This document shows, one piece after another, positions 2,506-26,347 of a stretch of DNA of 26,347 nucleotides. The stretch covers positions 1 to 26,347 of IMG/VR virus record IMGVR_UViG_3300009093_000115; one strand, given 5' to 3'. This DNA is from a virus. Both the position numbers and the translations under genes were made by a program. The notes below the pieces were generated by a model that saw nothing but the letters and a program-made list of their open reading frames with translations, was not told where the DNA came from and ran no database searches. The stretch's first letter is position 1. Each line of letters begins with the position of its first letter.

Positions 2506-2749
2506 CTCTGTGATTTTTCTTTATCAAATCTTCCTTGTCCAGGGTCAGCACGGTAAGTCTGTCCGTACGCATGGCCCATATTCTCCCGGTAAAGAGTAAA
2601 CGAATACGTTCCCATAGCGATAGCCGCCATGATGTGATAGACCATTGATGCAATGTCTTATCATCTACATAGGACTCGACAAGTGAATGAACAGGCTGAC
2701 CGTTCCAAAGGTCTGTCGCATTGGATTCGTCAAAAGGCGCAGGTGTCAT
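2486..2749 (-). CDS. Small hypothetical phage protein with W-R-L...F-T-G-R-I-W motif
   Basis: The 87-aa protein has an acidic N-terminal half and a conserved-looking core at about residues 41-58 (WRLSLWERIRLLFTGRIW). It resembles the small 'W-R..L..R.R.LF.G.iW' proteins often found in phage genomes, whose function is unknown; this resemblance is from memory and not verified. It overlaps the regulator upstream as ATGA (2746-2749) and the 90-aa gene downstream by 20 bases, so the three minus-strand genes form one coupled unit. No membrane segment or signal peptide is apparent. Confidence 0.55.
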   Translation of the reverse strand: MTPAPFDESNATDLWNGQPVHSLVESYVDDKTLHQWSITSWRLSLWERIRLLFTGRIWAMRTDRLTVLTLDKEDLIKKNHRDDTDTN

Positions 2750-3036
2750 AGTGATTTTTTTAGAAGTGCTAAGATAGGCGGTTTGGGAGGATGCAGCAGT
2801 ACAAGCTTCGGATTTATCTCGTGACTTTCATCGATTAGTCGGTCAATGGTGAGAAGATACGACATCTCGCTGTCCACTGTCCAGGTTTTTGATCCGGATT
2901 CAATGCGGTAGATGGTTTCTACCGATAAGCCTGATCTAACAGAAACAGCCGTGAGTGTTATACCATACAAGGCCCGTAAACGCTTTAGCTGCTGGGCCTT
3001 GTGGACCCGAGCTTTTTCAATATCGGAATTTAGCAT
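2746..3036 (-). CDS. XRE-family helix-turn-helix regulator
   Basis: The 96-aa protein carries a Cro/C1-type HTH at about residues 15-62: a helix (QQLKRLRALYGIT), a turn-helix unit (LTAVSVRSGLSVETIYRIESGS) and C-terminal helices (SEMSYLLTIDRLI). Such proteins bind DNA as dimers. The ATG at 3036 (MLNSDIEKARV) is preferred over the upstream in-frame ATG at 3096, because the longer form would add Cys/Ser-rich residues unlike the family and would cover the promoter region. The gene diverges from the capsid gene, and the 15-bp palindrome at 3081-3095 lies between them and is a candidate operator. The C-terminal PPKPPILALLKK tail is unusual. It is the first gene of a minus-strand unit inside an otherwise plus-strand late region. 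Confidence 0.75.
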   Translation of the reverse strand: MLNSDIEKARVHKAQQLKRLRALYGITLTAVSVRSGLSVETIYRIESGSKTWTVDSEMSYLLTIDRLIDESHEINPKLVLLHPPKPPILALLKKSL

Positions 3037-3074
3037 ACAACAATAGTACGATAAGTCACTAACTGACGTGTCAC

Positions 3075-3082
3075 TATTTTTG
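3075..3082 (+). promoter_or_regulatory. Candidate Bacteroidota -7 box for the capsid gene
   Basis: TATTTTTG matches the TAnnTTTG -7 consensus of Bacteroidota promoters and lies 39 bases before the chosen capsid start at 3122. A good TTTG/TTG -33 element at the expected distance is not visible, so the promoter is tentative. It abuts and slightly overlaps the palindrome at 3081-3095. Confidence 0.4.
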
Positions 3083-3095
3083 CACATCCTGTGCA
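3081..3095. promoter_or_regulatory. Candidate operator: palindrome TGCACA-TCC-TGTGCA
   Basis: Perfect 6-bp inverted arms separated by 3 bases sit in the divergent intergenic region between the HTH regulator (start 3036) and the capsid gene (start 3122). The size and symmetry fit a site for a dimeric XRE repressor. The site overlaps the end of the candidate -7 box, so binding would be expected to repress the capsid promoter. No second copy is seen in this intergenic region. Confidence 0.5.
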
Positions 3096-3121
3096 TTTCT
3101 CTAAATACTTACACGGGCACA

Positions 3122-5781: not shown

Positions 5782-6300
5782 ATGAAAAACATAAAAGTAA
5801 CTTTCTTGATCGGGTTTCTTGTAGCGATGGCACTGTCTTCCACGGCCCAGCTGCGCACTACGACCCGTTCCACCATACAGCAAGGTCAGTTCCTGGACTA
5901 TCCCGGCTCCTGGCTTACGGCAGTACCGGCAGCTGCGCAGATGGATACCCTTCAGGTATCTGACACGGTAGCCTACATTATACCGGTCATGCATAGCAAT
6001 GACGTGGACCTTACCCATGAGTTCTATTGGACGAAATACGGATCAGGCACCGCTACCGTTACGCTGACTTTCTACCAGGGCAATACACCGTGGTACTTCA
6101 CCCAATGTACATCCGGAGTGGCAAAGACGGCCTATTCCAAATCGTATACCATCTCTGCGTCCGGTGACCAGGGATTTCTGTCCTTCAAGACCGATTCAGT
6201 GAATTTCACCGGCAGATATCTGAAGGTGCAATACATGACCAGTTCGACGGCCAGCGTGGGAGGCAAGATCATAAGTCGAACAAAGGCTACTATTAAGTAG
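5782..6300 (+). CDS. Secreted beta-rich protein of unknown function
   Basis: The 172-aa protein begins with a Sec-type signal peptide (MKNIKVTFLIGFLVAMALSS, cleavage probably after ...STA or STAQ near residues 22-23). The mature part is Thr/Ser/aromatic-rich and looks like a beta-sandwich (ATVTLTFYQGNTPWYF, LSFKTDSVNFTGRYLKVQY). It stands just after the capsid terminator and before tail genes, a slot where decoration or head-fibre proteins are often found. An export signal is odd for a particle assembled in the cytoplasm. It could be a decoration protein, or a surface protein of the infected or lysogenic cell. I recognise no family. Confidence 0.65.
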   Translation: MKNIKVTFLIGFLVAMALSSTAQLRTTTRSTIQQGQFLDYPGSWLTAVPAAAQMDTLQVSDTVAYIIPVMHSNDVDLTHEFYWTKYGSGTATVTLTFYQGNTPWYFTQCTSGVAKTAYSKSYTISASGDQGFLSFKTDSVNFTGRYLKVQYMTSSTASVGGKIISRTKATIK

Positions 6301-11930: not shown

Positions 11931-12944
11931 ATGCACTTTGTAAGCGATCAACGGGTAACAATAGGTGATAAAGTCATTAACACGGTGATAAGCATACGTG
12001 ATAAGTTCGACTCTACGCACGTAGGCGCTACCTGTGAAATAGTAGTACCGTTGAACTGTGTCATAGAGTACGTTAATTCTGGATCGGGATACTTAACAGC
12101 TTACGCTTTGGACCTTTTCAAAACAGGTGATCCGGTTACTGTCGAAATGTGGATGATAGATGAATCCGGAGTCAATAAAGGGATAGTGCAAACGTTCAAA
12201 GGATACGTGTTCGATTTTAAAATGGGCATGCCCCTTACCATAAAGTGTATAGACTATTTGCCTTTGCTAGGTCACAATAAGACGATCAGTAATTATACCG
12301 GATCGTTGAAAAATCTAATAGAAACCATACTAAAAGGCACAGGCATAAGTCTTTTGCTCCCTACTCTCGATCTTCAATTGGTAAAGTGGTCATGTAAAAC
12401 AGTATCACCTTGGGGCATATTAGAGTACTTTAAAAAGGCATTGGGCATAAACATAACCCTTTTTGGAGATAAGCTATACATGAACGTTGCGTCCAATACA
12501 CTTAAAGTAGTCAACTTCGATAGTAGGACAAATGTTCATAGGAACGAGCTACAAATACCTGATGCGGTTTGGCAAGGATACAAAGTGAAAGCATGGTTCA
12601 TAAACAATAACGGTACACGCAATAGCTTAGAAGTAGGTGATCCAGATGGCCATTGTACAGATGTGTATTTTTATAAAGTCGCAGGCGGAGAACCAGTATA
12701 CAAAAGGCTGGCAGATGAAGCGCTGGGTAAATTAAAACAGCGAAAATACTCCGGGGAGGTAGGAGGGCTTCTGTATCCAGTGATAGGTCTATACGATAAG
12801 GTCGTATATAATGACTTTAGATATCCCGAGAAAAACGGTAACTATGTAATTACTTCTTATTCTCACACGTTCAATGATAGCGGAATATTAGTATCTATGC
12901 GATGGGCCTTCTTAACCGATTTTCTAAACTCTGTAAGTAACTAA
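11931..12944 (+). CDS. Tail hub protein (gp27 / late control D-like)
   Basis: The 337-aa protein follows the tape measure block and precedes the gpV-like spike, the normal position of the hub. Its pattern is an N-terminal beta domain (RVTIGDKVINTVISIRDKF), a G-x-V-F-D-F...L-T-I-K-C-I-D segment (about residues 91-108) and the downstream LVKWSCKTVSPWGILEYFKK helix. These resemble the gpD/gp27 hub fold, in which the tail tube docks on a trimeric ring. The C-terminal part ends in VITSYSHTFNDSGILVSMRW. The gene is visibly richer in ATA and A-rich codons than the capsid gene. No lysozyme domain is fused. Confidence 0.7.
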   Translation: MHFVSDQRVTIGDKVINTVISIRDKFDSTHVGATCEIVVPLNCVIEYVNSGSGYLTAYALDLFKTGDPVTVEMWMIDESGVNKGIVQTFKGYVFDFKMGMPLTIKCIDYLPLLGHNKTISNYTGSLKNLIETILKGTGISLLLPTLDLQLVKWSCKTVSPWGILEYFKKALGINITLFGDKLYMNVASNTLKVVNFDSRTNVHRNELQIPDAVWQGYKVKAWFINNNGTRNSLEVGDPDGHCTDVYFYKVAGGEPVYKRLADEALGKLKQRKYSGEVGGLLYPVIGLYDKVVYNDFRYPEKNGNYVITSYSHTFNDSGILVSMRWAFLTDFLNSVSN

Positions 12945-12948
12945 GCAC

Positions 12949-13509
12949 ATGGATGCAGGAAACAAAGAACAGGAACTAACGGAAGCACTTTTGAACATGA
13001 TCAGAGTAGCCAGCCGGAACCATACCGTTATCGAAGGAAAAATTGTCTCGGTGGATGAGACGGCCTGGACATGTGATGTGGAAGTCAATGACGGAGTAAC
13101 TTCTATGACAGTAGGTGATGTACCACTAGAAACGCTCACTAATAACAAGGCAACCTTTATATTTACCCCTAATAAAGGGAGCGACTGTTTGCTGGTGTTC
13201 AGAGATGGCAATCAGGACCGTCCGCAGCTCTTAAAGATTCAGTCTGCGAGGGTTATATCTGCTGCTCCCACGGAAAAATGGGTGTTCGGAAAAGGCGATC
13301 AGGGAGGAATTGTACTTGTAAATCCGTTGACTGAACATATTAATACCGTGGAAGAGGATTTGAATGAGCTGAAGACCCTTATTAGCTCATGGGTGCCCGC
13401 CCCTGGCGATGGGGGAGCTTCTTTGAAAGCATTGCTGTCAGAATGGTTTGCCTCTAAAATAACGCCTACAACGGCCGAAGACCTTGCCTCTAAAACCATA
13501 TTCCAATGA
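12949..13509 (+). CDS. Baseplate spike protein (gpV/gp45-like)
   Basis: The 186-aa product has an N-terminal helix (TEALLNMIRVASRNHTVIEG), then an OB-fold-like beta region (GKIVSVDETAWTCDVEV, DVPLETLTNNKATFIFTPNK), and a second part with a coiled coil (VEEDLNELKTLISSW). OB-fold plus trimeric needle is typical of gpV-type baseplate central spikes, and the position right after the hub supports this. It ends in an ATGA overlap with the wedge gene (13506-13509). A metal-binding HxH tip motif is not obvious, so the needle tip may be another protein. Confidence 0.65.
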   Translation: MDAGNKEQELTEALLNMIRVASRNHTVIEGKIVSVDETAWTCDVEVNDGVTSMTVGDVPLETLTNNKATFIFTPNKGSDCLLVFRDGNQDRPQLLKIQSARVISAAPTEKWVFGKGDQGGIVLVNPLTEHINTVEEDLNELKTLISSWVPAPGDGGASLKALLSEWFASKITPTTAEDLASKTIFQ

Positions 13510-13808
13510 AAGATTTCGTATACAATATCGAGACGCAGGATTGGGATATACAAGACGGTGAGTTTGTGTTTGCTGACGAAGTGAGTGACCAGAATGGAGG
13601 GATAATTTTACTTGCACGGGCCTTTAATTCCAGCAATCCGATCCTTGGGATAGGCATCAACCAGGTTCGCGGGGGATCGGTTCTGCAAGCTAATTTCGAG
13701 ATGAACAGATGGGTACAGCAAGTGCGGGACGATGGGGGTAAAGCTGCCGTATCCACAAAGACAGATGCACAGCTGAACACAATATTCACCTGGACGGTAG
13801 ACTACTGA
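13506..13808 (+). CDS. Baseplate wedge protein (gp25/W-like)
   Basis: The 100-aa protein (MKDFVYNIETQDWDIQDGEF...) has the size and gene position of the gp25/W wedge component between spike and gpJ. Its beta-strands (GEFVFADEVSDQNGGIILLA) and the central GIGINQVRGGSVLQANFEMNR stretch fit a small baseplate protein, but the classic gp25 E-P-R motif is not seen, so the family is uncertain. It is coupled to the spike by ATGA and followed after 2 bases by the LysM gene. Confidence 0.5.
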   Translation: MKDFVYNIETQDWDIQDGEFVFADEVSDQNGGIILLARAFNSSNPILGIGINQVRGGSVLQANFEMNRWVQQVRDDGGKAAVSTKTDAQLNTIFTWTVDY

Positions 13809-13810
13809 CA

Positions 13811-14161
13811 ATGGCAAGTACCTATATAGTGAAAGTGGGGGATACGATCCGGGACGTGTGCATTAACGGCACGGGTTCTATGTCCAATTGGGACGCTATC
13901 CTTTCTGCAAATGGATTCGATACATGGACACCTTTGCTAACGGCTGGACAGGAAATAGTAGTACCGGACGGGGTTTTTATCGACACAAATAGTTTTGCAG
14001 ATAAGAAAGTATATCCATCGTGTAACAACGGACCGGCAAATATATTGGACGTGTTGCAGCAGGTGTTTGATATACTGGCCGACAGGTGGCTATTGAAGGA
14101 TGGATTCTGGGATGACACCGGCATATGGCTGGATACGGCAACGTGGATAGATAACCCATAA
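13811..14161 (+). CDS. LysM domain baseplate protein
   Basis: The 116-aa protein opens with a clear LysM domain at about residues 5-53: YIVKVGDTIRDVCINGTG, then a W-D-A-I-L-S-A-N-G-F segment and L-T-A-G-Q-E-I-V-V-P. LysM domains bind N-acetylglucosamine-containing chains or, in many contractile tails, hold baseplate parts together. The rest (about 65-116) is acidic and Trp-rich (DRWLLKDGFWDDTGIWLDTA). No catalytic motif is present, so it is structural rather than a lysin. Its position among wedge genes fits a gp53-like or peptidoglycan-docking role. Confidence 0.7.
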   Translation: MASTYIVKVGDTIRDVCINGTGSMSNWDAILSANGFDTWTPLLTAGQEIVVPDGVFIDTNSFADKKVYPSCNNGPANILDVLQQVFDILADRWLLKDGFWDDTGIWLDTATWIDNP

Positions 14162-14166
14162 CGACA

Positions 14167-14553
14167 ATGGCGCAGCAAATTATAAATAATCTAGAACAAG
14201 CCCCCGCGGTCCGTGCGGCTCTCAATGGCAACTTTACAGAGTTGTACGGAGCTATTCCGTTGCCTGTGAAGCTTCCAAATCAAGCAGCCAATACAAATTA
14301 CCCTATACCCCCTAATAACTTAATTCAATTTATACTGATCCAATGGGCTGAAGGCGACCCTGTTTTACGCATAGGCACGACTGCGGGCGGCAATGAGATC
14401 ATGGACGACACGCCTATAACGGTGGACATGGCGCAAGACCCGCTACCGGTAAACATCATGCGCCCAATAGGAGTAGATGGCATTCAGCTCTATTTCACAA
14501 TAGCGGGAGGCAATGTAAACCTGTCCCTTTTTATGTTGAAAAACATTTTCTAA
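14167..14553 (+). CDS. Hypothetical baseplate protein
   Basis: The 128-aa protein has a short helical start (QIINNLEQAPAVRAALNGNF) and a beta-sandwich-like remainder (NNLIQFILIQWAEGDPVLRI, VDGIQLYFTIAGGNVNLSLF). I recognise no family. It lies between the LysM protein and the gpJ-like wedge, with a 5-base gap before it and a 3-base gap after it, so it is almost surely part of the baseplate operon. A role as a wedge-to-fibre adapter or small beta-domain is possible but unsupported. Confidence 0.55.
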   Translation: MAQQIINNLEQAPAVRAALNGNFTELYGAIPLPVKLPNQAANTNYPIPPNNLIQFILIQWAEGDPVLRIGTTAGGNEIMDDTPITVDMAQDPLPVNIMRPIGVDGIQLYFTIAGGNVNLSLFMLKNIF

Positions 14554-14556
14554 TAA

Positions 14557-15330
14557 ATGGCCGGCAAAGATCAAATACTCTCTAATCTTGGTGCTCTTGA
14601 ATTTGATAATTCGAGTCAGGCGGCCATTAATAAATTGTTGGCACAAGGTATTGGAGACTTTACCGACAATATAGAAACGGAAATGACCAATACAAAGAAT
14701 TCGATTACCGAAGTCGTTGCGACGTTACGATTTGGAAAAGCGAATTACTATGTAACCAAGGCGAAAGCTTTTCAGCTGGGAGATGACCTTATACCTACAG
14801 GAGATGATCTCGATCCGGGATACGCCGTTATCGATCCTTCGAAACAAATTGTATCGCAAGCTGCATTCGAAGATAACGACGGGGAGCTGTCGATAAAAGT
14901 AGCAAAGACCAATAGCCTTACCGGACTGCTTGAGCCGTTGACAGCAGATGAAAAAGCTGCGTTCGATGCTTATTTTGTTATCATGGAAGCGCCTGGACTA
15001 CCTGTATCGAAAGTAAGTCTGCCGGGAAACGTACTGCTGTTCTCGGCCATATGTACGTTTAACGCCGGGTACAACAGAGCAAACATAGTGATAAATGTAA
15101 ATGCGGCCTTGATACTGTTCGCACAGACATTTGGTTTCAATGGTACTTTCTATACGGATCAGTTAAGCGCCTATGTACAGCAACAGGTTCCCGGAGTCAA
15201 AGATTTTTTTATAAACAACACGCAGATAGACGGCGTACCCTTTATCGGATTTACGACATTGACATCTGGGTTTTTTAATTATGCTGCTTCGGTCATACCG
15301 GGCATTCAATACAATTCCATAAATGGCTAA
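14557..15330 (+). CDS. Baseplate wedge protein J-like (gp6-like)
   Basis: The 257-aa protein matches the gpJ/gp6 wedge pattern: an N-terminal helical segment (LAQGIGDFTDNIETEMTNTK), the F-G-K-A-N-Y-Y-V-T-K-A-K-A-F-Q-L-G-D stretch at about residues 59-76, then beta segments (YAVIDPSKQIVSQAAFEDND, GELSIKVAK). The C-terminal half continues through LSAYVQQQVPGVKDFFINN and a domain of repeated Ile/Asn strands. Two copies of this protein normally link wedges into the baseplate ring. It overlaps the next gene by 8 bases. Confidence 0.65.
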   Translation: MAGKDQILSNLGALEFDNSSQAAINKLLAQGIGDFTDNIETEMTNTKNSITEVVATLRFGKANYYVTKAKAFQLGDDLIPTGDDLDPGYAVIDPSKQIVSQAAFEDNDGELSIKVAKTNSLTGLLEPLTADEKAAFDAYFVIMEAPGLPVSKVSLPGNVLLFSAICTFNAGYNRANIVINVNAALILFAQTFGFNGTFYTDQLSAYVQQQVPGVKDFFINNTQIDGVPFIGFTTLTSGFFNYAASVIPGIQYNSING

Positions 15331-15823
15331 CCTGTCAAACTTTAGAAAGATAGATTTTTCTGCGATGCTTCGCGAGACACTGACATCTTTCTTTTCGATA
15401 AACAAGGCAGGCGCGGCCACATGGGGGTATAAGTTCTGTGCTGCCTGTTTGGCCGTGCTAATCCAGCCGTTTAAGGATTTTGATGCTTATAGGCAAAAAA
15501 TGTGGCTCATAGCAAATTGTAAATGGCAGATTGGACAGCTTACCTATGTATTGAATAGGCTGTATGATCCGGCGCTTAACAGGATCATTATAGCGCAGGC
15601 AGTAACGACGCCGCAGTTTTTAAACGCATTCCCTTACGACGGGACCATGTGGGCGGGAAGCTTCGACGATGCACCGATTGTGTTCTTACAGACTTTCGGA
15701 TCGCAGGCAGCGAAAACGGTAGTCACATTTGTTGTGCCCGCCGAACTTGATTTGGACGATCTGACGGCAACAGTGGCGCTAGTCGCAATGGACGGTATCC
15801 CATATAAAATTGTAACCGTATGA
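15323..15823 (+). CDS. Tail protein I-like baseplate component
   Basis: The 166-aa protein follows the gpJ-like gene as gpI does in P2-type and Mu-type tails. It begins with a conserved-looking helix (FSAMLRETLTSFFSINKAGA) and an amphipathic block (VLIQPFKDFDAYRQKMWLIA), then a beta-rich C-terminal part (TVVTFVVPAELDLDDLTATV). GpI proteins attach fibres to the wedge. The family match is weak and the assignment is mainly by order. Its stop overlaps the next start as ATGA (15820-15823). Confidence 0.55.
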   Translation: MANLSNFRKIDFSAMLRETLTSFFSINKAGAATWGYKFCAACLAVLIQPFKDFDAYRQKMWLIANCKWQIGQLTYVLNRLYDPALNRIIIAQAVTTPQFLNAFPYDGTMWAGSFDDAPIVFLQTFGSQAAKTVVTFVVPAELDLDDLTATVALVAMDGIPYKIVTV

Positions 15824-16770
15824 CAAGCTTTGCACAGATATTTTTTCCTACAGTGCGTATCACAGTGCCGGGCCTTGGGAATCCGGCGTACATCGATGAT
15901 GTGAAGGCCGCCAATCAGCTCATGGTAGACGGCCTTGCGGCGCTGTTAGGGCTCTACAATACGGACGGCTTCTGTATCGTATCGGGATTTACCTATGATC
16001 CGAATGCAAAGACCTACGGCCCTGGTGTGTTTTATTTTAATCAACAATTCTACTACCAGCAAGTTGTTTTCCCGGAAGGATCGTACTTAAAACCAAACCC
16101 CTCGGCGGTGATGCCGAAGAACTTTAGCGATACGAACGCGCGGCCCATATACATGAACTACGTATCTATTGAGACAAACGATCCGGCGGGCGCTACGCCC
16201 ATTTTTCAAGGCGACATGAACGCTTCACGGATGGGTATTTTTCAAAACGTAGGTATCATACACAGCCTGCAAGATGTCGTAAACACATTGGGTACTGCTG
16301 CCTTTGCTAAAATAGGTACGACTCCCGGAACGGTTGCCGCCGGCAATGACACTCGTTTGGTTGGCGACTCTGACTATTTCGATGGTCGATACGCAAAGAA
16401 AACAGATGTCATTTTAAAGAATCTGGCCAATGATCCAGGCGAATACGATCCTGTTCAACCGTGGGACCCTGTAAATAAGAGATATGCCGATGCGACAAGC
16501 GGAAGACGGGCTGCTTCTGGAACACTTCATGTAGGCGACGCAGACACGCAGGGCGGCACTTTGTATGTGGTGGATATGGGGACTGTAGTCCAGGGAGCTG
16601 CGTACTTGATCACCTTCAGCACCGGATCATTAAGTGCGAATCATAACGTGGATATTTTCTATCAAACCTGCTGGGTCAACAAGGCACAAAGCTCGTTCGG
16701 TCTTTGGTTTCGGGAAGCTCAGGCAGGTGTCCAGAACATTCAGCTTGATTGGATCGCATGGCTTTTATAA
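15820..16770 (+). CDS. Tail fibre / fibre-base protein
   Basis: The 316-aa protein has an N-terminal baseplate-binding-like domain (ITVPGLGNPAYIDDVKAANQ) and a central segment with the fibre-type motif FAKIGTTPGTVAAGNDTRL followed by YFDGRYAKKTD (about residues 163-195), a trimeric-fibre hallmark. It ends with a globular C-terminal tip (GTLHVGDADTQGGTLYVVD ... IQLDWIAWLL). It lacks a signal peptide, unlike the four host-recognition genes after it. It is a probable anchor for the larger fibre encoded next; the two genes are separated by only 11 bases. Confidence 0.7.
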   Translation: MTSFAQIFFPTVRITVPGLGNPAYIDDVKAANQLMVDGLAALLGLYNTDGFCIVSGFTYDPNAKTYGPGVFYFNQQFYYQQVVFPEGSYLKPNPSAVMPKNFSDTNARPIYMNYVSIETNDPAGATPIFQGDMNASRMGIFQNVGIIHSLQDVVNTLGTAAFAKIGTTPGTVAAGNDTRLVGDSDYFDGRYAKKTDVILKNLANDPGEYDPVQPWDPVNKRYADATSGRRAASGTLHVGDADTQGGTLYVVDMGTVVQGAAYLITFSTGSLSANHNVDIFYQTCWVNKAQSSFGLWFREAQAGVQNIQLDWIAWLL

Positions 16771-16781
16771 ACAATACTGAT

Positions 16782-19700
16782 ATGAAAAAATTACTATACA
16801 CCCTGTTGGCCGTGATCTCTGTAAGTGCTGCAAAGGCGCAGCAGCCTATAAAGATTTCGTCTCCTACCGAATTTTTGAAATACATCCGCGTGGATGGGTA
16901 CGTGGTAGCGCCTATCTATTACCAGGGCACAAACGGCAATACTACACAGGATACGCTTGCTACCCGCGCGTATGCGCGTCAGTTTGGCGGTACTGGCTTT
17001 CCATTCATTCAGGGATATGCGATTAAAATAAGTGGCGACACGATCTCTATAGACTCCCTCAACTATCGCAAACTGGATTCTATGTACGTGTTGAACGACA
17101 CCACCATTATAACCAAAAATAACGGTGCTATTCAGACGTATACGATACGAGGCGCAGTCTTTTCATTCAACGGCAGGAGGGGTGCCGTCGTGCCCATGAA
17201 CGGAGACTACAGACAGTACTACGTACAGCTGGACAGTTCATACAATGACCCTTCCTGGCTCAATAGCTTTAACTTCTCTAAACTCACGGCTCGGCCTAAC
17301 TCTGTAGCCGGATACGGCATTCTCGACGCACTGCTGAATACGGGCAACGCATATGGATGGGGTTCAGGTCCGTATTCCTCCCGTCCCGCACAGGGGCACC
17401 TTGGGAGTTTCTATTACTCTACCGACTCCCTGGCGATCTACTACGATAACGGTACGGCCTGGGTTAAGGTAGTTACTACAGGGGCGACAGGCACACTTTT
17501 CGGCCCCTTGACAGCCGGTACGATACCCTACGCGCAGACATCTACAAAGCTCGGCGCAGCTCCCATTATCAACGATACGACGAACAGCAGGATACAGCTA
17601 AACGTCTCCATGCTTGTCAATAGCACCGGCGCATCGATCTTAGACAAAGGCAACACGGCACAGCGGCCGTCCTCTCCGGCAACAGGTATGATACGTTTCA
17701 ATACGGATTCCGCCAGCTATGAACAGTATACCGGGTCCTCCTGGCAAAAAATGATAGGAGGCACCGGGGGCGGCGGTTCTTCTGGAACAGTCACATCAAT
17801 TGTTTTCGGTCGGGGGCTTAACGGCGGCACTATCACCAGCTCCGGCAACGTCAGTGTAGACACTACCATCATACCCCGCTTTGCCGATACGTTGACGACA
17901 CTTGTTACTAAGACTTTTCTATCAACCCGAAACTATCTGACGGCTGAGACGGACCCGATAGCCAATGCCCGATTGATAACACTGAATCAGGTGACGGGAG
18001 GAGGTGTCACCGTAGTGGGCACTTCGGCACAGGGACTTGGTACAAGTCCGGTCTGGACGGTAAAGGCTGATACGGGTATCCTGGCCACTAAAAACGACCT
18101 ACGGACCGGCAGCCTATTGGTGGGCGGTACAAAAGGCAATCTCACGTATTTGACAGCTAATAACACACTGTACACAGCTCCCATTACGTACGATTCTACA
18201 GGCGGATTTATCACGTTAAGCAAGACGCTGAAATTCGATGGTACGGTGCTGAACCCTTTCCTGTACAACATAACCAATGCGACGACGAACATGTTAATTG
18301 TCTCCGGAACGAAGACAAATGCAGCGCTGGCTTCCTGGCAAGAATCGGTTACTTCTCCCCTTGGACTCTATCATATAAATCAAAACGGGTCTACCACATC
18401 CGGGGCGTGGTTGTCGGACCAATGGTTAACCGGAGGTAGGAACGACATAACCCATTTCGACACCTGGACAAATAGTTCCACCGCCTATGTACATGGTCTT
18501 CGTAACGTAGGCGGTTTAGGCCGATACGATTTTGCCGTATCCGCCCTCCCTTCATCTGTGCCGTTTGATTTCAGCAAAGCGACCATTGACATCATGCAGT
18601 TCGACAGCTTAGGCCGCATATACATCATGAATCCGCCGCGCACAGGCAGCAGTGGAGATTCTTTGCTGGTCAGGTCCTCGGGCGGAGAACTGAAGTACAT
18701 TGCACAGACAGTCATAACGGGAACGCTTAATCGCATAGGACTGCTCGATTCGTTATCCAGGGTATCCAACGGCGCACAGATCAGCGGCACGGGCATCTAC
18801 TTACAGACTGCCGACAATCTGACATCTGGCGGGACAAATGCAGGCTTGATCTCGGCCTCTTTTAATAAGACGGTTGACTCTATACAAAAACGTCTGCCTC
18901 TTACGACATGGCATCTCTCGCATCCAGGTGCGGGCGTATGGTCTATATATAGCTCTCCGGACGGCCTTACTCTCTTCGGCAAGAATCTACAAGGGTCGAA
19001 CGGCATTACAGTTGCAACGCAAACCGATAGCTCCGTCAAATGGGCGCCTGACTATACCTATCTGGTGGGCGTTACCAATACGCAGACATTGACCAATAAG
19101 ACGCTCACTACCCCCGTGCTCGGCGGCATATCCAGCAGCAACGATACGACGACATACAAACCGTTGTCCATAGATGCCTCTGGAAATTTGCGTCGGAATA
19201 CAAGCTGGCCTGGATCGGGGGGAGTCGGCGCACAAAATCTGTCTCTTGTTCAAACGGCAGCCGGTGACACAGTTAAAATATCAGGCGGCACATCTGCTTT
19301 TTTGCCATCGGCTACCCACAGCTTGGCAGGGGCCATGAGCGCCGCCATCTCTGCCAGGGTGGATTCGATATTGAACCTTACGTGGTATGGACATGGGCAT
19401 CAGCTACCCATCGTGAACTATACAGTAGACTCTCTTATCTTTCCTGGTCTTGACGTAACAGTGTCTGCTACTGGCGGCTTGGGCGTGACGTATGTCGGCA
19501 ATCGTGACTCGCTTGCGTGGAGGATAGGCATAACGGCCATGACTGCTAATGGTGATCTGCTGTGGTACAATAACGGTGTTACACGGCTGGCAGCCGGAGC
19601 CGTGAATCAAGTACTTACTGTCACTTCGGCGGGTACATTAGGGTGGGTAACGCCCGCTGCCTCTTCAGGAGGTACCGTGACCAGTGTAGGCCCGGCCAGC

Positions 19701-20870
19701 GCGTCGAACAATATGTTCACGACGACCATTACTAACCAGACTACTACGCCCAATATAACTTTTGCGCTACAGAATGCCCCGGCTAATACCGTCTTCGGCT
19801 CCCTGGCAGGCGGCGCACCTGGATACTTTAACCTGAACCTTACGTCGTCCATGTTCGCTAACGAAGGATCGACTACGACCGTCTACCACGGTAATACATC
19901 AGGAAACGGTTCTTTCGGCCCGGTGAATATGGCGACCGATGTAACCGGGACCATGTTAGCGAATCAATTTCCAGCCCTTACAGGAGCTATCACAACGGTT
20001 GCCGGATCACTTAACACGGCACTTTCAAATAACGCCGTAACCACGGCTGCCATCGCAGCTAATGCCGTAGACCTTGCAACGAAAGTGATGGGGATAGGAT
20101 CGCCAGCTAATGGATTTACGGGTGTGAACAACGGCACAAAGACAATAACGCTGGGTGGTAACTTTGCCACATCCGGCGCATTCGCCACTACTCTCACGGT
20201 CACGGGGGCTACCAATGTAACACTACCGACATCCGGTACGCTTCTGGCTACAAATGGAAGCGGGGCGGCTCTTACCGGGGTGGTTCGATCTTTAACGGGT
20301 ACAGCCAATCAAATACTTGTAAACGGAACTACCGGATCAGCTCAAACGCTGGCGCTGACACTCACGACCGCGCAGGATATTGGTACGACCAGCTCTCCTA
20401 TATTCACCGATGTATCTATAACGGGTCCGCCAGCTGGATCGACTACGGACAATATCGTGGTGCAAAACCCTTCAGGGGGAGCGTTACGGGTAATACCACA
20501 GGCAGCATTTCTAAACGCCGCCCCTCTCGCAGACATGACCGCCACGCCAACCACAAATGCGGTGAGTCCCACTGCCAAGGTTCGATATACCATAGTCGAT
20601 TCTGTCGTCACATTGTCCGCAAGTGGAAATTGGGACTGTACGACAGCGAACAGTTTTAGTCAGTTAACAGTAACGCTTCCGGTCAATGGCGCTTATAGTG
20701 GATTAGAAGGGGCAAGTTACATAGGAACGGGTACGTGGTACAGTGCAGGCACACAGGACTTTGTTCCGATTCAAGTGAGACTCGCATCCGCTAACACAAT
20801 GGTGCTATACTGCAAGCCTACACAAACTATATCTACGCAATACTCTGTTTTCGTTCAATACCACATGTAA
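16782..20870 (+). CDS. Large tail fibre protein with Sec signal peptide
   Basis: The 1362-aa product begins with a signal peptide (MKKLLYTLLAVISVSAAKAQ). Fibre motifs follow: FNGRRGAVVPMNGDY...YNDPSWLNSFNFSKLTARP...GYGI at about residues 128-180; TQTLTNKTLTTPVLGG near 765; and SGAFATTLTVTGATNVTLPT near 1130, with GTANQILVNGTTG after it. The GAF...TLTVTGATNVTLP and TLTNKTL motifs are well known from large phage fibres. Low-complexity Gly/Thr/Ser-rich stretches suggest a long, flexible trimeric shaft. The protein probably carries host recognition at its C-terminal tip, which is unassigned. ATG 16782 is preferred over an upstream TTG (16749) because it gives the signal peptide. Confidence 0.8.
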   Translation: MKKLLYTLLAVISVSAAKAQQPIKISSPTEFLKYIRVDGYVVAPIYYQGTNGNTTQDTLATRAYARQFGGTGFPFIQGYAIKISGDTISIDSLNYRKLDSMYVLNDTTIITKNNGAIQTYTIRGAVFSFNGRRGAVVPMNGDYRQYYVQLDSSYNDPSWLNSFNFSKLTARPNSVAGYGILDALLNTGNAYGWGSGPYSSRPAQGHLGSFYYSTDSLAIYYDNGTAWVKVVTTGATGTLFGPLTAGTIPYAQTSTKLGAAPIINDTTNSRIQLNVSMLVNSTGASILDKGNTAQRPSSPATGMIRFNTDSASYEQYTGSSWQKMIGGTGGGGSSGTVTSIVFGRGLNGGTITSSGNVSVDTTIIPRFADTLTTLVTKTFLSTRNYLTAETDPIANARLITLNQVTGGGVTVVGTSAQGLGTSPVWTVKADTGILATKNDLRTGSLLVGGTKGNLTYLTANNTLYTAPITYDSTGGFITLSKTLKFDGTVLNPFLYNITNATTNMLIVSGTKTNAALASWQESVTSPLGLYHINQNGSTTSGAWLSDQWLTGGRNDITHFDTWTNSSTAYVHGLRNVGGLGRYDFAVSALPSSVPFDFSKATIDIMQFDSLGRIYIMNPPRTGSSGDSLLVRSSGGELKYIAQTVITGTLNRIGLLDSLSRVSNGAQISGTGIYLQTADNLTSGGTNAGLISASFNKTVDSIQKRLPLTTWHLSHPGAGVWSIYSSPDGLTLFGKNLQGSNGITVATQTDSSVKWAPDYTYLVGVTNTQTLTNKTLTTPVLGGISSSNDTTTYKPLSIDASGNLRRNTSWPGSGGVGAQNLSLVQTAAGDTVKISGGTSAFLPSATHSLAGAMSAAISARVDSILNLTWYGHGHQLPIVNYTVDSLIFPGLDVTVSATGGLGVTYVGNRDSLAWRIGITAMTANGDLLWYNNGVTRLAAGAVNQVLTVTSAGTLGWVTPAASSGGTVTSVGPASASNNMFTTTITNQTTTPNITFALQNAPANTVFGSLAGGAPGYFNLNLTSSMFANEGSTTTVYHGNTSGNGSFGPVNMATDVTGTMLANQFPALTGAITTVAGSLNTALSNNAVTTAAIAANAVDLATKVMGIGSPANGFTGVNNGTKTITLGGNFATSGAFATTLTVTGATNVTLPTSGTLLATNGSGAALTGVVRSLTGTANQILVNGTTGSAQTLALTLTTAQDIGTTSSPIFTDVSITGPPAGSTTDNIVVQNPSGGALRVIPQAAFLNAAPLADMTATPTTNAVSPTAKVRYTIVDSVVTLSASGNWDCTTANSFSQLTVTLPVNGAYSGLEGASYIGTGTWYSAGTQDFVPIQVRLASANTMVLYCKPTQTISTQYSVFVQYHM

Positions 20871-22195
20871 TGAAAAAGATACTATTCATACTATGCCTTT
20901 TGCCTGTGCTGGGATACAGCCAGATCATTCGCCCTACGCCCAATATCATAGAGGCTAATCCTGGTCCGTTTATTCACTTTCTGACCTTCCTGAATGCGTT
21001 TACTACCAACGCGGGCACCGCTTCCGCTTCTCAATCCTTCAGCTATACCACCGGCCAGCTCTCGACAGACGTAGTGTGGACAGCCGGTTCTGGGATGGAA
21101 ATATGCCTGACACAGAACGGTACGTACGTGACATCATTGACGGCGACAGGGTCGGCTACAGCTGGTACGTATACGTTATGGGTCCGGGTAGCGCAAGCCA
21201 CGACCGCCGGATCATATAGCGGTAATATATCGGGGGTAAGTTCCCCGGCTCCCACGGCTAATATGCCCTACTCAGCTACCGTAAATGCCGTGCCTACGCT
21301 CAATGTAAGCCCTAACACGCTTTCCGGATTCACGTCTACGGCGGGCAATCTGGGCGGATCACAGAGCTATAGTCTGACCGGATCAGCCCTCACAGGCACC
21401 ATCACGGTCACACCGCCAAGTGGGTATAAGGTCTCGAAAGACAATAGCACGTTTACGACATCTACGACAGTTACCCCTTCATCCGGAGCGATCAACCAAA
21501 CCATATACGCAGCGTTGTCAGATGCCAATACGGCAGGCTCTTATTCAGGCAACATAACGAACAGCGGGGGCGGTGCAACCGCCCAAAATGTAGCCGTAAG
21601 CGGTACTACAACTGCACCCGCTACGACTCCGGATTCGGCCCGGTTTCAATTCGATACTACTACTGCAAACGATGTAGCCGGATGGACAATTGTAAGGGGC
21701 GATCCGTCGAAGCATGTCATAAGTGGAACGGTGGGCAGCACGACAATAACCTATACAACTGTTTCTACCTCTACCTCAAATTGGGCACCGTTTTGTTCAC
21801 CGTGCGCTTCGACAGGTATAAATAACGGTGTAACAAATGCCACTATCCCATATACGGGTAGCACAGGCGTTATGAGAGAAGCGGCATTCACGACAACCCC
21901 ATACCAAACAACAAATGCGCAGTTTATATCCGGAGGATGGAAGACGGACGGTACTCTATACGACGTTATAATATCGGGAACAACGCAGTTCGGTTTTGCC
22001 GCTGTAGGCTCCTATACCGTAAGAGGTGCCACGTTAAGCTCCAATCAGCCCATTAACGGAGCGTCCAATACTTCAACTCAATCCACATGGACAAGTATGG
22101 CTCCGGACGCTTCAGGTAATTTTTCTTTTTATTTCGGACCACAGTCGGGGAATCAAATAGCGCTTGTATCGTTCATCATCATACGCAAACACTAA
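20870..22195 (+). CDS. Secreted adhesin-like tail protein with tandem beta-sandwich domains
   Basis: The 441-aa protein has a signal peptide (MKKILFILCLLPVLGYSQ). At least two copies of a Bacteroidota-type extracellular beta-sandwich follow. The first is at about residues 30-140 (LTFLNAFTTNAGTASASQSF ... AGSYSGNISG); the second is at about 140-250 (NTLSGFTSTAGNLGGSQSYS ... GSYSGNITNSGGGATAQNVAVSG). Both share the G-S-Y-S-G-N-I ending. A different C-terminal beta domain with DSARFQFDTTTANDVAGWTIVRG begins near residue 255. These domains are familiar from secreted host proteins and suggest a surface-binding or fibre-tip role. It overlaps the fibre stop by 1 base (TAATG), so the two are coupled. 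Confidence 0.7.
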   Translation: MKKILFILCLLPVLGYSQIIRPTPNIIEANPGPFIHFLTFLNAFTTNAGTASASQSFSYTTGQLSTDVVWTAGSGMEICLTQNGTYVTSLTATGSATAGTYTLWVRVAQATTAGSYSGNISGVSSPAPTANMPYSATVNAVPTLNVSPNTLSGFTSTAGNLGGSQSYSLTGSALTGTITVTPPSGYKVSKDNSTFTTSTTVTPSSGAINQTIYAALSDANTAGSYSGNITNSGGGATAQNVAVSGTTTAPATTPDSARFQFDTTTANDVAGWTIVRGDPSKHVISGTVGSTTITYTTVSTSTSNWAPFCSPCASTGINNGVTNATIPYTGSTGVMREAAFTTTPYQTTNAQFISGGWKTDGTLYDVIISGTTQFGFAAVGSYTVRGATLSSNQPINGASNTSTQSTWTSMAPDASGNFSFYFGPQSGNQIALVSFIIIRKH

Positions 22196-22201
22196 TACAC
22201 C

Positions 22202-22642
22202 ATGAGACTATGCATCTTACTGCTGTGCCTTACTGCTACGTTATCCATCGCAGCGCAAACGAAAATAGACCGAGCAGACTGGACGTATGTATCTACAAGG
22301 AAGTCCGATACATCCCGGTTTAAGTTTCACGGCTCCGGATTTTTACACGACACTATCACAAATATCACTCACTGCGACACTTTGCACCGCGTCATATCCA
22401 TTGCTGAGATAGATAGGATCGACGGCAAGATCAATAGTACGGCAACGCAATTTCCGTACGACCGTGTAGAGACATACGACCCTAAAGACCCTGACCCGTC
22501 CATGAAACCAGGAGTGTACTACTACAGGACAATTGATCAGGGCACCTTCGAGTATTGGCCGGGTGAAATGGTGGTGCGTAACTGGCCCGGTGTGTTTTAC
22601 ATAGAATACAATCGCATCGTAAGACAGGCAAAGAAGAAATGA
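22202..22642 (+). CDS. Small secreted protein of unknown function
   Basis: The 146-aa protein starts with a signal peptide (MRLCILLLCLTATLSIAAQ). The mature part is rich in charged and aromatic residues (DRADWTYVSTRKSDTSRFKF, GVYYYRTIDQGTFEYWPGE) and ends RQAKKK. No family is recognised. It overlaps the spike gene as ATGA (22639-22642), so it could be a folding partner or a baseplate-to-spike adapter; that is inferred only from position. Two cysteines lie in the signal region and one more in the mature chain, so disulfide stabilisation is not suggested. Confidence 0.55.
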   Translation: MRLCILLLCLTATLSIAAQTKIDRADWTYVSTRKSDTSRFKFHGSGFLHDTITNITHCDTLHRVISIAEIDRIDGKINSTATQFPYDRVETYDPKDPDPSMKPGVYYYRTIDQGTFEYWPGEMVVRNWPGVFYIEYNRIVRQAKKK

Positions 22643-25350
22643 AAAAGCTATTTGTCATATTATTGATTCTGCCGTTCTGGGCCGCAGCGCAGACGGAGAC
22701 GCATGATTTTAGGAGATTTGATACTACTGTAAGTTTTCCTAACATAGCCAATCCGTTCGGAGCACCATACCAATGGATCATTGAGGGAGAGATACCGACC
22801 AATTATTTTACTCCAAATCATCCTGATACGGCTTCTCGTATCATGATTCTAACTATGCCCGGTCAAGGCCAACAAGGCTCAACTAACTATGCAAACTTGT
22901 ATGCATACGGCGCAGGGTTTTGGAGGCGTAACGGATGGGATGGAGGCGTAACTATTAGCAACGGTAAACACTATCCGCTTCTATTCACTGTATCATTTGT
23001 GAACAACGTAACCCCGCAAGCTGATCAGTATAACAGGTTAGTTGACTCTCTTATAAAATGGTATCATCCCAGAACAGGTAAAGTGTCAGTGACAGGGTTT
23101 TCTCAGGGAGCATTTACGAATGGCGCTCTGATTAAGTTTGAACAGAACGCCAATGCTGAAACCGGCATGAAAAAGGTTGCATGCGCTGCCCTTTTCGAAG
23201 GTACGCCCGATCCTTTACCATCTCCGTATAATCAGTGGGATAGGGACACGGTTGCCTATCAGGTGTGGGCTACTAAATATGGAGGTCATTATTTTTATTT
23301 GGAAGGCAGCGGTTCGGACAACTTCAGAAACGGATGGGTCTACTCAGGGGCCATGAACCGGGCGGTTGCAAACTGTGCGTACTTTTCATACGAGAGTTTG
23401 GGGGGAGGCGCGCATTGCTGTTGGAACAGCATGTGGGACCCTGGCGCTACGAACTGGAATTCAGTAACGCCCCCGGCGCTGGGTCCTAATAACTCACCTT
23501 CTCAGGCAGGGACCAACACAATGGGTAATTATAAGATCGGTGATAACGTTTATACGTGGATGTTTCGCAACAGCGGAGATACTACCTTAGTCGGTTCCGG
23601 TGGGGGCGGCGGGGGTACTATTACAGTGTTTGCTGGCCTCGATACTACGCTGGTTTTACCGACCAATAGTTTGACACTCCGGGGACAAGTAACACCGCCT
23701 ACAGGTGCCACGGCGACCGGCTATCTGTGGTCGCAAGTATCGGGTCCTAATTCGGCTACGCTCACGGGTCCTACGAACATAAATGTATCAGTCTCGGCAC
23801 TTATAGCCGGTGTGTACACGTTCCAACTGCGAGGAATAGATAATCAGGCCGACACGGCCTATGACTCGGTAAACGTGACTGTGCTATCCAATGCCTGCCG
23901 TACGTTTACGTGGGATTCGACGCAAAGCAACATAGTGCTAACCGATGCCAACTTGCATGCTACCCCCGGCTTGCATAGGTGCGATACTGTGGATATATGG
24001 GACAGGATAACAGGCGGCGGATACAGGTCACTGTCAGTGCAAAATGAAGGCGTGCAAAATGATCCTAATCCCGGATGGATTCACATTCGAGGGCGTGGAC
24101 ATCATGGAACGAAAGGAGCAAGAATTGCGCCTAGCTCATCGAACCTATTCGCCAATATATGGGACAATAATAACTGGATACACCTGGACAGCTTCTACAT
24201 GTATGATCACATTGACCCTTTTATTTTCGACTACGTAACAAACGGATATTCGCACCATATGTGGTTTACCAACATTGGTGAGAAGCGACAAAACGCTTTT
24301 TTCCCATCGAATACGCTGTCAAACACGCTGCCTAATTGGGGTGGTCCCGGCGACACGGTGAACTGTCAATATGATTGGACGTGGGAGAACGGAAGCACGG
24401 ACAGCCTGCTGGGAGGTACAAACGGCTTGACGTGGCTATGGCTTGGAGGACCTAATAAAAACAATGTTTGGTTAAAAGCGACTGTGAAGAATTATAAAAT
24501 GGACCACTATTCCAGCAGCAGCAATCCGGCCTGTTATATTCGAGTTCAAAACGTATTTGGGTTCTACGCCAACAATGACAGCGTTAGCAATCTCGGCAAC
24601 GGCGGTCCCAGCTACTCCGGTCATGCGGCATCTATATTTTCGGAAGGATCGTATTACGATATTCACAATATGCATTTTGGTCCCGGTAACTTCGGCAACG
24701 ATGTGCGCGATGTCGGCGTATGGGATATTCCGGGGATGGAGTCGTTTTTTACGGCTATCGATACCGGTTATAATGGAGTGTCTAAGTTCTACAACATACT
24801 CAGCGAACACAAGGTAAAGTATCCTATTATAGAGACGCGCAATACGAAAAGTGATACTACGCAAAATCCATATATGCGCATGCGACAGGTGCGATATCTA
24901 GATCAAATAACCGGATATTCATTGGCCGTGGGCATAGGTCACTCTCCTTACAATGTGAGTGTGTTGGACGCGTATACAGGTGCAGGTGATACACTGTATC
25001 TTCATAACTCTACGTATAGTGTTATTTCAGATTCGCCAAGCGTTTGGGGTCAGCCGTGGGTAAAAATACTTACGATAGCGTCCGGAGCACCAAGCTATAT
25101 AGATACAGCCAAACTATGGTCTCAGCCGACATTTGCACTCTCAGGCTTGGCCGATACGATAAAGTACATACCTGCTGCTAACGGGCCTTTGTATAGAGCC
25201 GGGACGGCTTCCAGGCCGTGGCCATCCTTTGACATATACAACGTGCCTCGTGCAACCGTGGGACCGGTGGACATAGGAGCCGTCACACTGCCATTCATAT
25301 ACTGTGATTGCATCGTGCTGCCTATACCCGGTAAAATATCTGATCCATAA
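22639..25350 (+). CDS. Tail spike: signal peptide, alpha/beta-hydrolase, PKD-like, probable beta-helix
   Basis: The 903-aa protein starts with a signal peptide (MKKLFVILLILPFWAAAQ). Residues about 30-310 look like an alpha/beta-hydrolase: GFSQG nucleophile elbow (Ser155), an aspartate candidate in YLEGSGSDNF (D227) and a histidine in GGGAHCCW (His259), consistent with an esterase or deacetylase. A poly-Gly linker (about 319-326) leads to a PKD-like Ig domain at about 328-417 (SQVSGPNSATLTG...VSALIAGVYTFQLRGIDNQAD). The C-terminal half, from about 420, has repeated short strands (WIHLDSFYMYDHID, SHHMWFTNIGEK) compatible with a right-handed beta-helix. This is the architecture of a polysaccharide-degrading spike; substrate unknown. 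Confidence 0.72.
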   Translation: MKKLFVILLILPFWAAAQTETHDFRRFDTTVSFPNIANPFGAPYQWIIEGEIPTNYFTPNHPDTASRIMILTMPGQGQQGSTNYANLYAYGAGFWRRNGWDGGVTISNGKHYPLLFTVSFVNNVTPQADQYNRLVDSLIKWYHPRTGKVSVTGFSQGAFTNGALIKFEQNANAETGMKKVACAALFEGTPDPLPSPYNQWDRDTVAYQVWATKYGGHYFYLEGSGSDNFRNGWVYSGAMNRAVANCAYFSYESLGGGAHCCWNSMWDPGATNWNSVTPPALGPNNSPSQAGTNTMGNYKIGDNVYTWMFRNSGDTTLVGSGGGGGGTITVFAGLDTTLVLPTNSLTLRGQVTPPTGATATGYLWSQVSGPNSATLTGPTNINVSVSALIAGVYTFQLRGIDNQADTAYDSVNVTVLSNACRTFTWDSTQSNIVLTDANLHATPGLHRCDTVDIWDRITGGGYRSLSVQNEGVQNDPNPGWIHIRGRGHHGTKGARIAPSSSNLFANIWDNNNWIHLDSFYMYDHIDPFIFDYVTNGYSHHMWFTNIGEKRQNAFFPSNTLSNTLPNWGGPGDTVNCQYDWTWENGSTDSLLGGTNGLTWLWLGGPNKNNVWLKATVKNYKMDHYSSSSNPACYIRVQNVFGFYANNDSVSNLGNGGPSYSGHAASIFSEGSYYDIHNMHFGPGNFGNDVRDVGVWDIPGMESFFTAIDTGYNGVSKFYNILSEHKVKYPIIETRNTKSDTTQNPYMRMRQVRYLDQITGYSLAVGIGHSPYNVSVLDAYTGAGDTLYLHNSTYSVISDSPSVWGQPWVKILTIASGAPSYIDTAKLWSQPTFALSGLADTIKYIPAANGPLYRAGTASRPWPSFDIYNVPRATVGPVDIGAVTLPFIYCDCIVLPIPGKISDP

Positions 25351-25378
25351 GCATTTTTAAACACAAACCATACACACA

Positions 25379-25699
25379 ATGAAAAGTATCATCACCGTCA
25401 TCGCTCTCGTTGTTTGCTCCATCGCTACGAATGCACAAACAACGAATGCGCAGAGACCTACCGGACACACAAAGACCGATACCATTACTTTACCAGCTCC
25501 GGCACCACAAGCGCCAAAGCTGTACTACGTTGTAATGACCGGCCCGGATTGGGATAACCTTGTCACCATGCTTATGGAGTCTAGCTATCCATCCACGGAT
25601 GTGAACAAGTATCGGAAATATATTGCGCAAAATATTCATGAACTTGTCCTGCCGCAAAACAGTGCAAACGGAAAGGATTCAACCGCCAAAAAGAAATGA
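25379..25699 (+). CDS. Small exported protein in the probable lysis cassette
   Basis: The 106-aa protein has a signal peptide (MKSIITVIALVVCSIATNAQ), a Pro/Thr-rich linker (TLPAPAPQAPK) and a short globular part (YYVVMTGPDWDNLVTMLMES) ending with a Lys-rich tail. A small tandem duplication TNAQTTNAQ sits around the predicted cleavage site. It overlaps the holin-like gene as ATGA (25696-25699). A periplasmic lysis accessory such as an Rz1-like spanin is conceivable, but there is no lipobox cysteine, so function is unknown. Confidence 0.6.
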   Translation: MKSIITVIALVVCSIATNAQTTNAQRPTGHTKTDTITLPAPAPQAPKLYYVVMTGPDWDNLVTMLMESSYPSTDVNKYRKYIAQNIHELVLPQNSANGKDSTAKKK

Positions 25700-25923
25700 A
25701 ACATAAGATTGAAACGCTTGTCTCGTTCATGTGCGGGACAAGTGGGTACGGTATCGCTATGACAACTATTCACATATCCCCTGAAGTATTGAAATTCACC
25801 ATCGCCATGCTGACCGCCGTCTGTGCAGGCGCATGCGGTTGGATCGGGCAGCAGGGGATCAAAGCCCTTTGGAAATTCATTGTCAAAATTAAAACGAGAT
25901 ATGGAAACAAAAAAAACAAGTGA
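25696..25923 (+). CDS. Holin-like small membrane protein
   Basis: The 75-aa protein has two hydrophobic segments, about residues 8-26 (LVSFMCGTSGYGIAMTTI) and 31-50 (VLKFTIAMLTAVCAGACGWI), and ends in a strongly basic tail (KIKTRYGNKKNK). Two short helices with a basic C-terminus are typical of phage holins, which open the inner membrane at lysis. It overlaps both neighbours, the previous gene by ATGA and the next by 23 bases. Holins have little sequence conservation, so the call is based on topology and place. No endolysin is visible in this window. Confidence 0.55.
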   Translation: MKHKIETLVSFMCGTSGYGIAMTTIHISPEVLKFTIAMLTAVCAGACGWIGQQGIKALWKFIVKIKTRYGNKKNK

Positions 25924-26347
25924 CTTTCTTCGGCTCAACGCAGCCGATTTTTTGAAAGGTCTGGTAATGGCTGTCGGTGCTGCGGTGCTGACGGTCCTCA
26001 GCGAATCTATCAACGCCGGTAATTTTCAATTTAACTGGCCGGACATATGGCATATCGCTTTGGCCACAAGCGTAACCTATTTAATGAAGAACCTCTTTAC
26101 CGGTGCGCAGACGATTATTAAGATACTATTCCTGGTAGTGTGCCTCTCTACCCTGTTTGTCTCTCGGGGATCGGCGCAAAGCATGTTTAAGCCGTTGCCG
26201 AAAGCGAAGGCGCAAAAAGCAGGTGTCTACTCTATGACCCTGACACCGCAACCTAACGGCGATAGCTTGTACCAGGGCTTTCGATTTGATGGACCGTCTG
26301 TCTTGTATGCCTTTCCGGATAACAACATATTCACCGGAATCGGGATA
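25901..26347 (+). CDS. Membrane protein running off the window edge (holin-like start, exported C-terminal part; partial)
   Basis: From ATG 25901 the frame is open to the last base, at least 149 aa. Residues 1-70 have two membrane segments (FLKGLVMAVGAAVLTVLSES, and IALATSVTYLMKNLF), resembling small holin-like proteins of Bacteroidota phages. Right after these comes a third hydrophobic run, TIIKILFLVVCLSTLFVSRG, ending SAQ, which looks like a signal peptide in its own right. The exported-looking region then begins SMFKPLPKAKAQ. In-frame ATG 26084 (MKNLFTGAQ) could be the start of a separate secreted protein that reuses the end of the first. Function of the C-terminal part is unknown. Confidence 0.6.
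   Translation, partial: METKKTSDFLRLNAADFLKGLVMAVGAAVLTVLSESINAGNFQFNWPDIWHIALATSVTYLMKNLFTGAQTIIKILFLVVCLSTLFVSRGSAQSMFKPLPKAKAQKAGVYSMTLTPQPNGDSLYQGFRFDGPSVLYAFPDNNIFTGIGI

Follow-up and report, generated by a model that had tools for sequence, protein, structure and literature searches.

In the textbook view, tail fibres are folded and attached in the cytoplasm. We asked what Sec signal peptides (leaders) are doing on a run of tail-operon genes in a contractile-tailed phage represented by the IMG/VR virus record IMGVR_UViG_3300009093_000115, a fragment of 26,347 bases that was analysed whole and is called the window here. An earlier reading of these bases (the original prediction) had reported leaders in genes at 16782, 20870, 22202, 22639 and 25379, and in one at 5782, and had proposed that the proteins either keep the leader as an assembly tag or are exported and join the particle or the host envelope later. 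We consider it fairly likely that the fibre encoded at 16782, and probably those encoded at 20870 and 22639, carry functional Q-rule leaders for Sec and signal peptidase I (SPI), are exported and cleaved, and dock late on short adaptor stubs.

Leaders were called by rules that look for a basic n-region, an uncharged hydrophobic core and small residues at −3 and −1 and that reward Gln (Q) at +1, and the null sets were scored identically. All six starts belong to real open reading frames (ORFs) beginning with ATG, and all six genes have every one of these Sec/SPI features, with Gln at +1 in 6/6 leaders, which fits the Bacteroidetes Q-rule. The calls fell on exactly these six of the 27 window genes, and the tube, sheath and baseplate genes were found by the same rules to be leaderless, as the original prediction had held for both groups; the signal peptide prediction that it had suggested thus called every gene named, rather than none for most of the five in the run. 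Q-type false positives arose in 8/1073 shadow ORFs and 13/6040 shuffled N-termini, and about 0.2 leader genes would be expected in the window by chance versus six observed. With the shadow-ORF rate, six or more calls among 27 genes have a probability of 4e-8; with the rate found upstream of the baseplate gene in relatives, the value is 2e-6. The run sits in the tail operon, where its genes overlap or are separated by short gaps. The leader-bearing features are as follows.

5782..6300, plus strand: predicted exported protein, 172 residues, leader MKNIKVTFLIGFLVAMALSSTA then Q, directly 3′ of the capsid gene
16782..20870, plus strand: tail fibre by position and homology, 1362 residues, leader MKKLLYTLLAVISVSAAKA then Q (leader codons 16782-16838)
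20870..22195, plus strand: predicted exported protein, 441 residues, leader MKKILFILCLLPVLGYS then Q
22202..22642, plus strand: predicted exported protein, 146 residues, leader MRLCILLLCLTATLSIAA then Q
22639..25350, plus strand: predicted exported protein, 903 residues, leader MKKLFVILLILPFWAAA then Q
25379..25699, plus strand: predicted exported protein, 106 residues, leader MKSIITVIALVVCSIATNA then Q, adjoining a holin-like gene
26084..26347, plus strand: seventh leader-like stretch, MKNLFTGAQTIIKILFLVVCLSTLFVSRGSA then Q, within a frame that stays open from 25898 up to the end of the contig

The six leaders listed originally hold, but the list was incomplete, the stretch at ATG 26084 having been overlooked. 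Within 25898-26347 the frame of a small holin-like membrane protein continues without a stop into this seventh Q-type leader, which is either part of a fusion with the holin-like protein or an internal start; the contig ends there. Two other export classes were considered and rejected. Type IX secretion cargo was set aside on finding no NCBIfam C-terminal sorting domain in ten leader-bearing proteins of the window and four relatives, and an Llp-like exported lipoprotein on the lack of a lipobox Cys, the +1 residue being Gln in all six window leaders. Cysteine content gave no sign of periplasmic disulphides. Among Bacteroidetes hosts, Gln at +1 averages 71%, and Q-values exceed 48% in 332/334 species (PMC5837995); because of these values, the Gln directly after the leader cut points to a Bacteroidota host.

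Three leaderless genes lie ahead of the run and serve to place it.

14167..14553, plus strand: stand-alone adaptor, 128 residues, with an N-terminal NFTELY-type domain and a C-terminal D1 domain (14299-14550)
14557..15330, plus strand: baseplate J-like protein (J), the query used to find relatives
15820..16770, plus strand: fibre/collar-like protein, 316 residues, with homologues in L007, L058 and L054, lying after the baseplate genes and ahead of the first leader-bearing fibre (16782)

Relatives were collected from IMG/VR by capsid alignment, and 68 loci (numbered with L) by alignment of J. Leader genes made up 36/301 (12%) of the same-strand genes downstream of J versus 11/750 (1.5%) of those upstream (Fisher 4e-12; 65 of the 68 loci), so that in related contractile-tail phages the leaders cluster at the fibre position. 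In the family of the window, the gene at the position of 16782 was always leader-bearing (L062, L063, L066, L068, L070 and L078), and a conserved mature motif, Q..IIxQPYxFxKYI, such as QTIISQPYLFQKYI, directly follows the leader; the mature N-terminus of the 16782 protein is QQPIKISSPTEFLKYIRV. The leaders of this family have a likeness of 0.34 versus 0.29 for shuffled ones, and the first 25 mature residues one of 0.53. No relatives turned up in viral contigs when single window proteins were the queries, nor in scans of genome contigs, and the fibres had at most short tblastn matches in phage records.

The drift of the leaders bears on the proposal that the hydrophobic N-terminus is never cleaved and acts as an assembly tag or membrane anchor, the fibre being assembled on the cytoplasmic side. 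With such a tag, the leader and tail assembly in the cytoplasm would be compatible, and cleavage is a step that we infer. However, nothing would keep an A/S/G-before-Q cleavage site in place in a tag, the mature part is conserved in this one family although its leaders drift, and one and the same body can be preceded by different leader modules, as described below; an uncleaved tag is accordingly quite unlikely. Between the two readings of the original prediction, we favour export followed by joining the particle and regard retention as a tag as the less likely, on the obeyed host cleavage rule, the leader drift, the replacement of an adaptor and the notes from tandem mass spectrometry (MS/MS) on virions of Cellulophaga phages.

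The replacement emerged from a comparison of the adaptors. Many loci encode a long leaderless fibre with an N-terminal adaptor (IKNWF..GLKPTQEQFWAWIDSF), and in other loci the IKNWF-type adaptor is a separate gene of 131-153 residues. The results showed that a short free adaptor is directly followed by a leader-bearing fibre in 11/11 loci (3 of them with frames cut by the contig end), whereas a long fused adaptor is accompanied by one in 0/28 loci (Fisher 6e-10, or 7e-8 once near-copies were merged). On the J tree, well-supported branches carry at least four switches of the leader state, and the adaptor split accompanies that state in 4/4 independent pairs; even close sisters differ, as in L082 and L084 (leader) versus L088 (fused), and L102 and L103 (leader) versus L089 (fused). 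The window family has a different adaptor, of the NFTELY type, which is free in the window (gene 14167) and is fused in L064 to an 888-residue leaderless fibre. In an NFTELY scan of about 70 further loci of mixed phages, L165 alone had a free adaptor with leader-bearing fibres; the remaining loci had no leader at the fibre position and served as a negative control. These gene arrangements indicate that leaders replace a fused cytoplasmic adaptor, a free stub plus a leader having been swapped for it.

Homologous bodies shared by leader-bearing and fused fibres were not found among the contractile loci, except for a small paralogue pair in L084, whose neighbouring members downstream of J (+3328 and +3954) are 42% identical, one with a Q-type leader and one without. 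Tandem leader-bearing fibre paralogues were also observed within single phages (L102, at 12511-18900, L103 and L127). The adaptors are duplicated too in L102 and L103, and L124 instead has tandem fused fibres.

Free adaptors whose baseplate-side domains are unrelated share a C-terminal domain, D1. A profile built from the C-terminal 70 residues of the free adaptors of a second fibre family (L095, L105, L116, L119, L122 and L127) was run against every ORF in every locus. It matched the C-terminus of the window adaptor (E 4e-5) and the free adaptors of L148, L070, L066, L062, L068, L165, L063 and L078, with noise from E 0.24, and found D1 in no fused locus. The two adaptor C-termini were matched in a profile-profile comparison (97.2%, E 3e-11), and the N-terminal halves of the two adaptor types have no evident similarity. 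Wherever the fibre position of a D1 locus could be read, a leader-bearing fibre was there, and the D1 regions of window-family members matched no Pfam family. D1 therefore appears to be an undescribed domain that is carried on two unrelated N-terminal domains and, judging from these loci, occurs only in phages with leader-bearing fibres. By this association it may be a docking site or merely a cap. A second type of adaptor C-terminus (L082, L102) was considered as kin of gp090 of Cellulophaga phage phi10:1 and rejected, as the match was not significant (E about 1).

The genes of the run lie after the baseplate genes in the tail operon, which is the gene position used to recognise tail fibres and tailspikes, and leader-bearing proteins match the tail fibre families phrog_2631, 5481 and 14572, the tail spike family phrog_4636, K1-lyase_C and Peptidase_S74; several carry polysaccharide- or ester-cleaving domains. 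Relatives of 16782 match phrog_2631 (L063), phrog_4636 (L078) and K1-lyase_C (L066), and the second fibre family matches phrog_5481 and S74 (L116). The PHROG matches of 16782 itself are weak or of unknown function and include the virion structural protein family phrog_20787 (E 7e-7), the tail families being matched by its relatives. We firmly assign 16782 as a tail fibre by position and homology, and 20870 and 22639 are probably tail fibre or tailspike proteins. The original description of the run as tail proteins thus stands for 16782 and is plausible for 20870 and 22639; it is not supported for 22202, 25379 and 5782, which we class as predicted exported proteins, claiming no virion membership for them.

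Could these genes be captured host genes for secreted proteins, with leftover leaders that are not selected in the phage? The PKD domain of 22639 has matches in Bacteroidota plasmid proteins, and the 20870 protein looks immunoglobulin-like (Ig-like) by eye. Nevertheless, leaders persist at one syntenic position across deep divergence and through several independent switches, and the bodies match phage tail families, which makes an origin of this kind very unlikely as an explanation.

Evidence on virions comes from cultured Cellulophaga phages, in the form of MS/MS notes in public records. In phi10:1, five consecutive genes (gp091-gp095) with Q-type leaders directly follow the short leaderless gp090, and the annotation of gp090-gp094 draws on experimental MS/MS proteomics. 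Four genes of phi19:1 (gp101-gp104) combine MS/MS notes with leaders, of which three are Q-type and one is not, and gp25 and gp26 of phi39:1 likewise have MS/MS notes and leaders, both Q-type; ahead of these two lies gp24, a free 107-residue NFxE-type adaptor that is MS/MS-noted too. Ten leader-bearing proteins of three cultured phages (phi10:1 gp091-094, phi19:1 gp101-104 and phi39:1 gp25-26) have thus been recorded in virions by others. Furthermore, phi46:3 gp081 has the pectate-lyase body of phi10:1 gp093 (93.5% identical) after a different leader, and phage Ingeline has it after a third; in phi4:1 gp051 and gp052, both MS/MS-detected, the body follows a leaderless N-terminus. One spike body thus stands behind three leaders or a leaderless phi4:1 N-terminus, and the leader therefore occupies the place of a virion-attachment module. 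No leader-bearing fibre run was found in phi46:1, phi18:1, FCL-2, 6H, RAP44 or crAss001.

These records also bear on whether leader-bearing fibres act in the host envelope or outside, in receptor masking, superinfection exclusion or capsule digestion for release, their detection in virions being carry-over. The export signals are clear, the enzymatic domains (K1-lyase_C, a weak GDSL, pectate lyase) would work free, lambda Lom is an exported outer-membrane protein encoded between tail spike and tail fibre genes (PMC12309495), and a paper on Porphyromonas gingivalis phages suggests outer-membrane modification as the role of the Q-rule proteins of those phages (PMC10367356). On the other side, virion records exist for four adjacent leader-bearing proteins each in phi10:1 and phi19:1, phi4:1 has the same spike body in leaderless form as a virion protein, and the leaders sit exactly where a virion adaptor was removed. 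We consider action confined to the envelope or the surroundings unlikely.

We therefore return to export followed by late docking. Assembly in the cytoplasm would yield a virion that has short leaderless adaptor stubs, in the window the 14167 protein with its C-terminal D1. In parallel, the fibre would be exported, have its leader cleaved and fold in the periplasm, where the exposed Gln would be cyclised to pyroglutamate. Docking on the stub would come only at lysis, with the failure of the inner membrane, or after the particle is released. More generally, and more tentatively, this may be a second, extracytoplasmic route of tailed-phage assembly, in which fibres matured by Sec, SPI and glutaminyl cyclase join a D1 stub during or after lysis, and which has arisen repeatedly by splits of fibre genes.

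Several points weigh against this proposal. Export, cleavage, pyroglutamate formation, docking on D1 and its timing are steps that we infer, and late docking follows by logic, not by observation, because export should separate fibre and particle. The virion records concern Cellulophaga phages and not the phage of the window, the MS/MS evidence consists of notes in databases, and exported proteins could have been carried along in virion purification. In addition, the Cellulophaga stubs are without a clear D1, and the free adaptors of L082, L102 and L103 carry another C-terminus. An independent-pairs test with four pairs reaches p 0.125 at best, which is not significance. In the second fibre family, leader and mature likeness are about equal (0.26 and 0.28), and the argument from leader drift comes from the window family alone.

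As to the individual genes, the start of 20870 overlaps the stop of 16782, and family searches gave no confident match for 20870 and no family for 22202. The 22639 protein has a K319L-type PKD domain at 332-415 and, by eye, an esterase-like GFSQG motif resembling a nucleophile elbow and a beta-helix resemblance in its C-terminal half; it is possibly a polysaccharide esterase or a spike. tblastn of 22639 against phage records gave no match, and the AlphaFold models of its first part (pLDDT 31) and of 5782 (pLDDT 49) were too low in confidence for a fold search. Homologues of 5782 keep a Q-type leader in L006 and L007, with a different leader sequence, and L003 also has a Q-type leader gene (24788-25489), adjoining its capsid-region genes. 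In the rest of the window, the sheath protein matches DUF2586, the hub protein matches a baseplate-hub family, and the capsid gene is a protease-capsid fusion. Three minus-strand genes (2233-3096) lie just ahead of the capsid gene, and relatives have minus-strand genes there too. The L007 group has a small predicted lipoprotein gene (L007 7566-7934) between its neck and tail genes, which the window lacks.

If the proposal is true, a tailed phage would be completed outside the cytoplasm, by way of fibres that have crossed the periplasm, and pyroglutamate-capped receptor-binding proteins could act on the cell surface before lysis too. A split fibre, a leader and a D1 stub form a clear genetic signature, and the cultured Cellulophaga phages allow direct testing. 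For annotation, leader genes of Bacteroidota phages may code for receptor-binding proteins even where an annotator might take them for secreted effectors or morons. In the portions of the open-licence literature available, an incomplete set, Q-rule phage genes were reported and no link of leaders to Bacteroidota tail fibres, split adaptors or virions appeared. Signal peptides were counted in Bacteroides phages Brb01 and Brb02 (PMC5723332) and in one of two Polaribacter phages (PMC4615864), and the target proteins of phage diversity-generating retroelements (DGRs) were reported to lack them in one survey (PMC6199706).

Compared with known systems, the fused-adaptor long fibres (L075, L088, L089 and others) occupy the same position after the baseplate genes and have an adaptor homologous to the free stubs, but unlike the split loci they are one polypeptide with no leader. 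phi10:1, phi19:1 and phi39:1 resemble the window in having a short leaderless adaptor-like gene near leader-bearing fibres and lyases; they differ in having another tail module with little or no sequence similarity to the window, and the virion MS/MS records are theirs only. Lambda Lom, a beta-barrel of the outer membrane, and the lipoprotein T5 Llp are not tail fibres. Both are nevertheless phage-encoded exported proteins like those of the window, Lom lying in the tail gene region (PMC12309495). The P. gingivalis phages likewise have Q-rule genes, for which a host secretion route was proposed; unlike here, these are, in the part of the paper available, five genes of unknown function, which are connected with neither tail fibres nor split adaptors nor virions (PMC10367356). 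Finally, the Q-rule SPI substrates of Bacteroidetes (Bochtler et al. 2018, PMC5837995) have, like the window genes, a Sec leader, a small residue at −1 and Gln at +1; they were described for host proteins, whereas the window presents the case on phage tail fibres.

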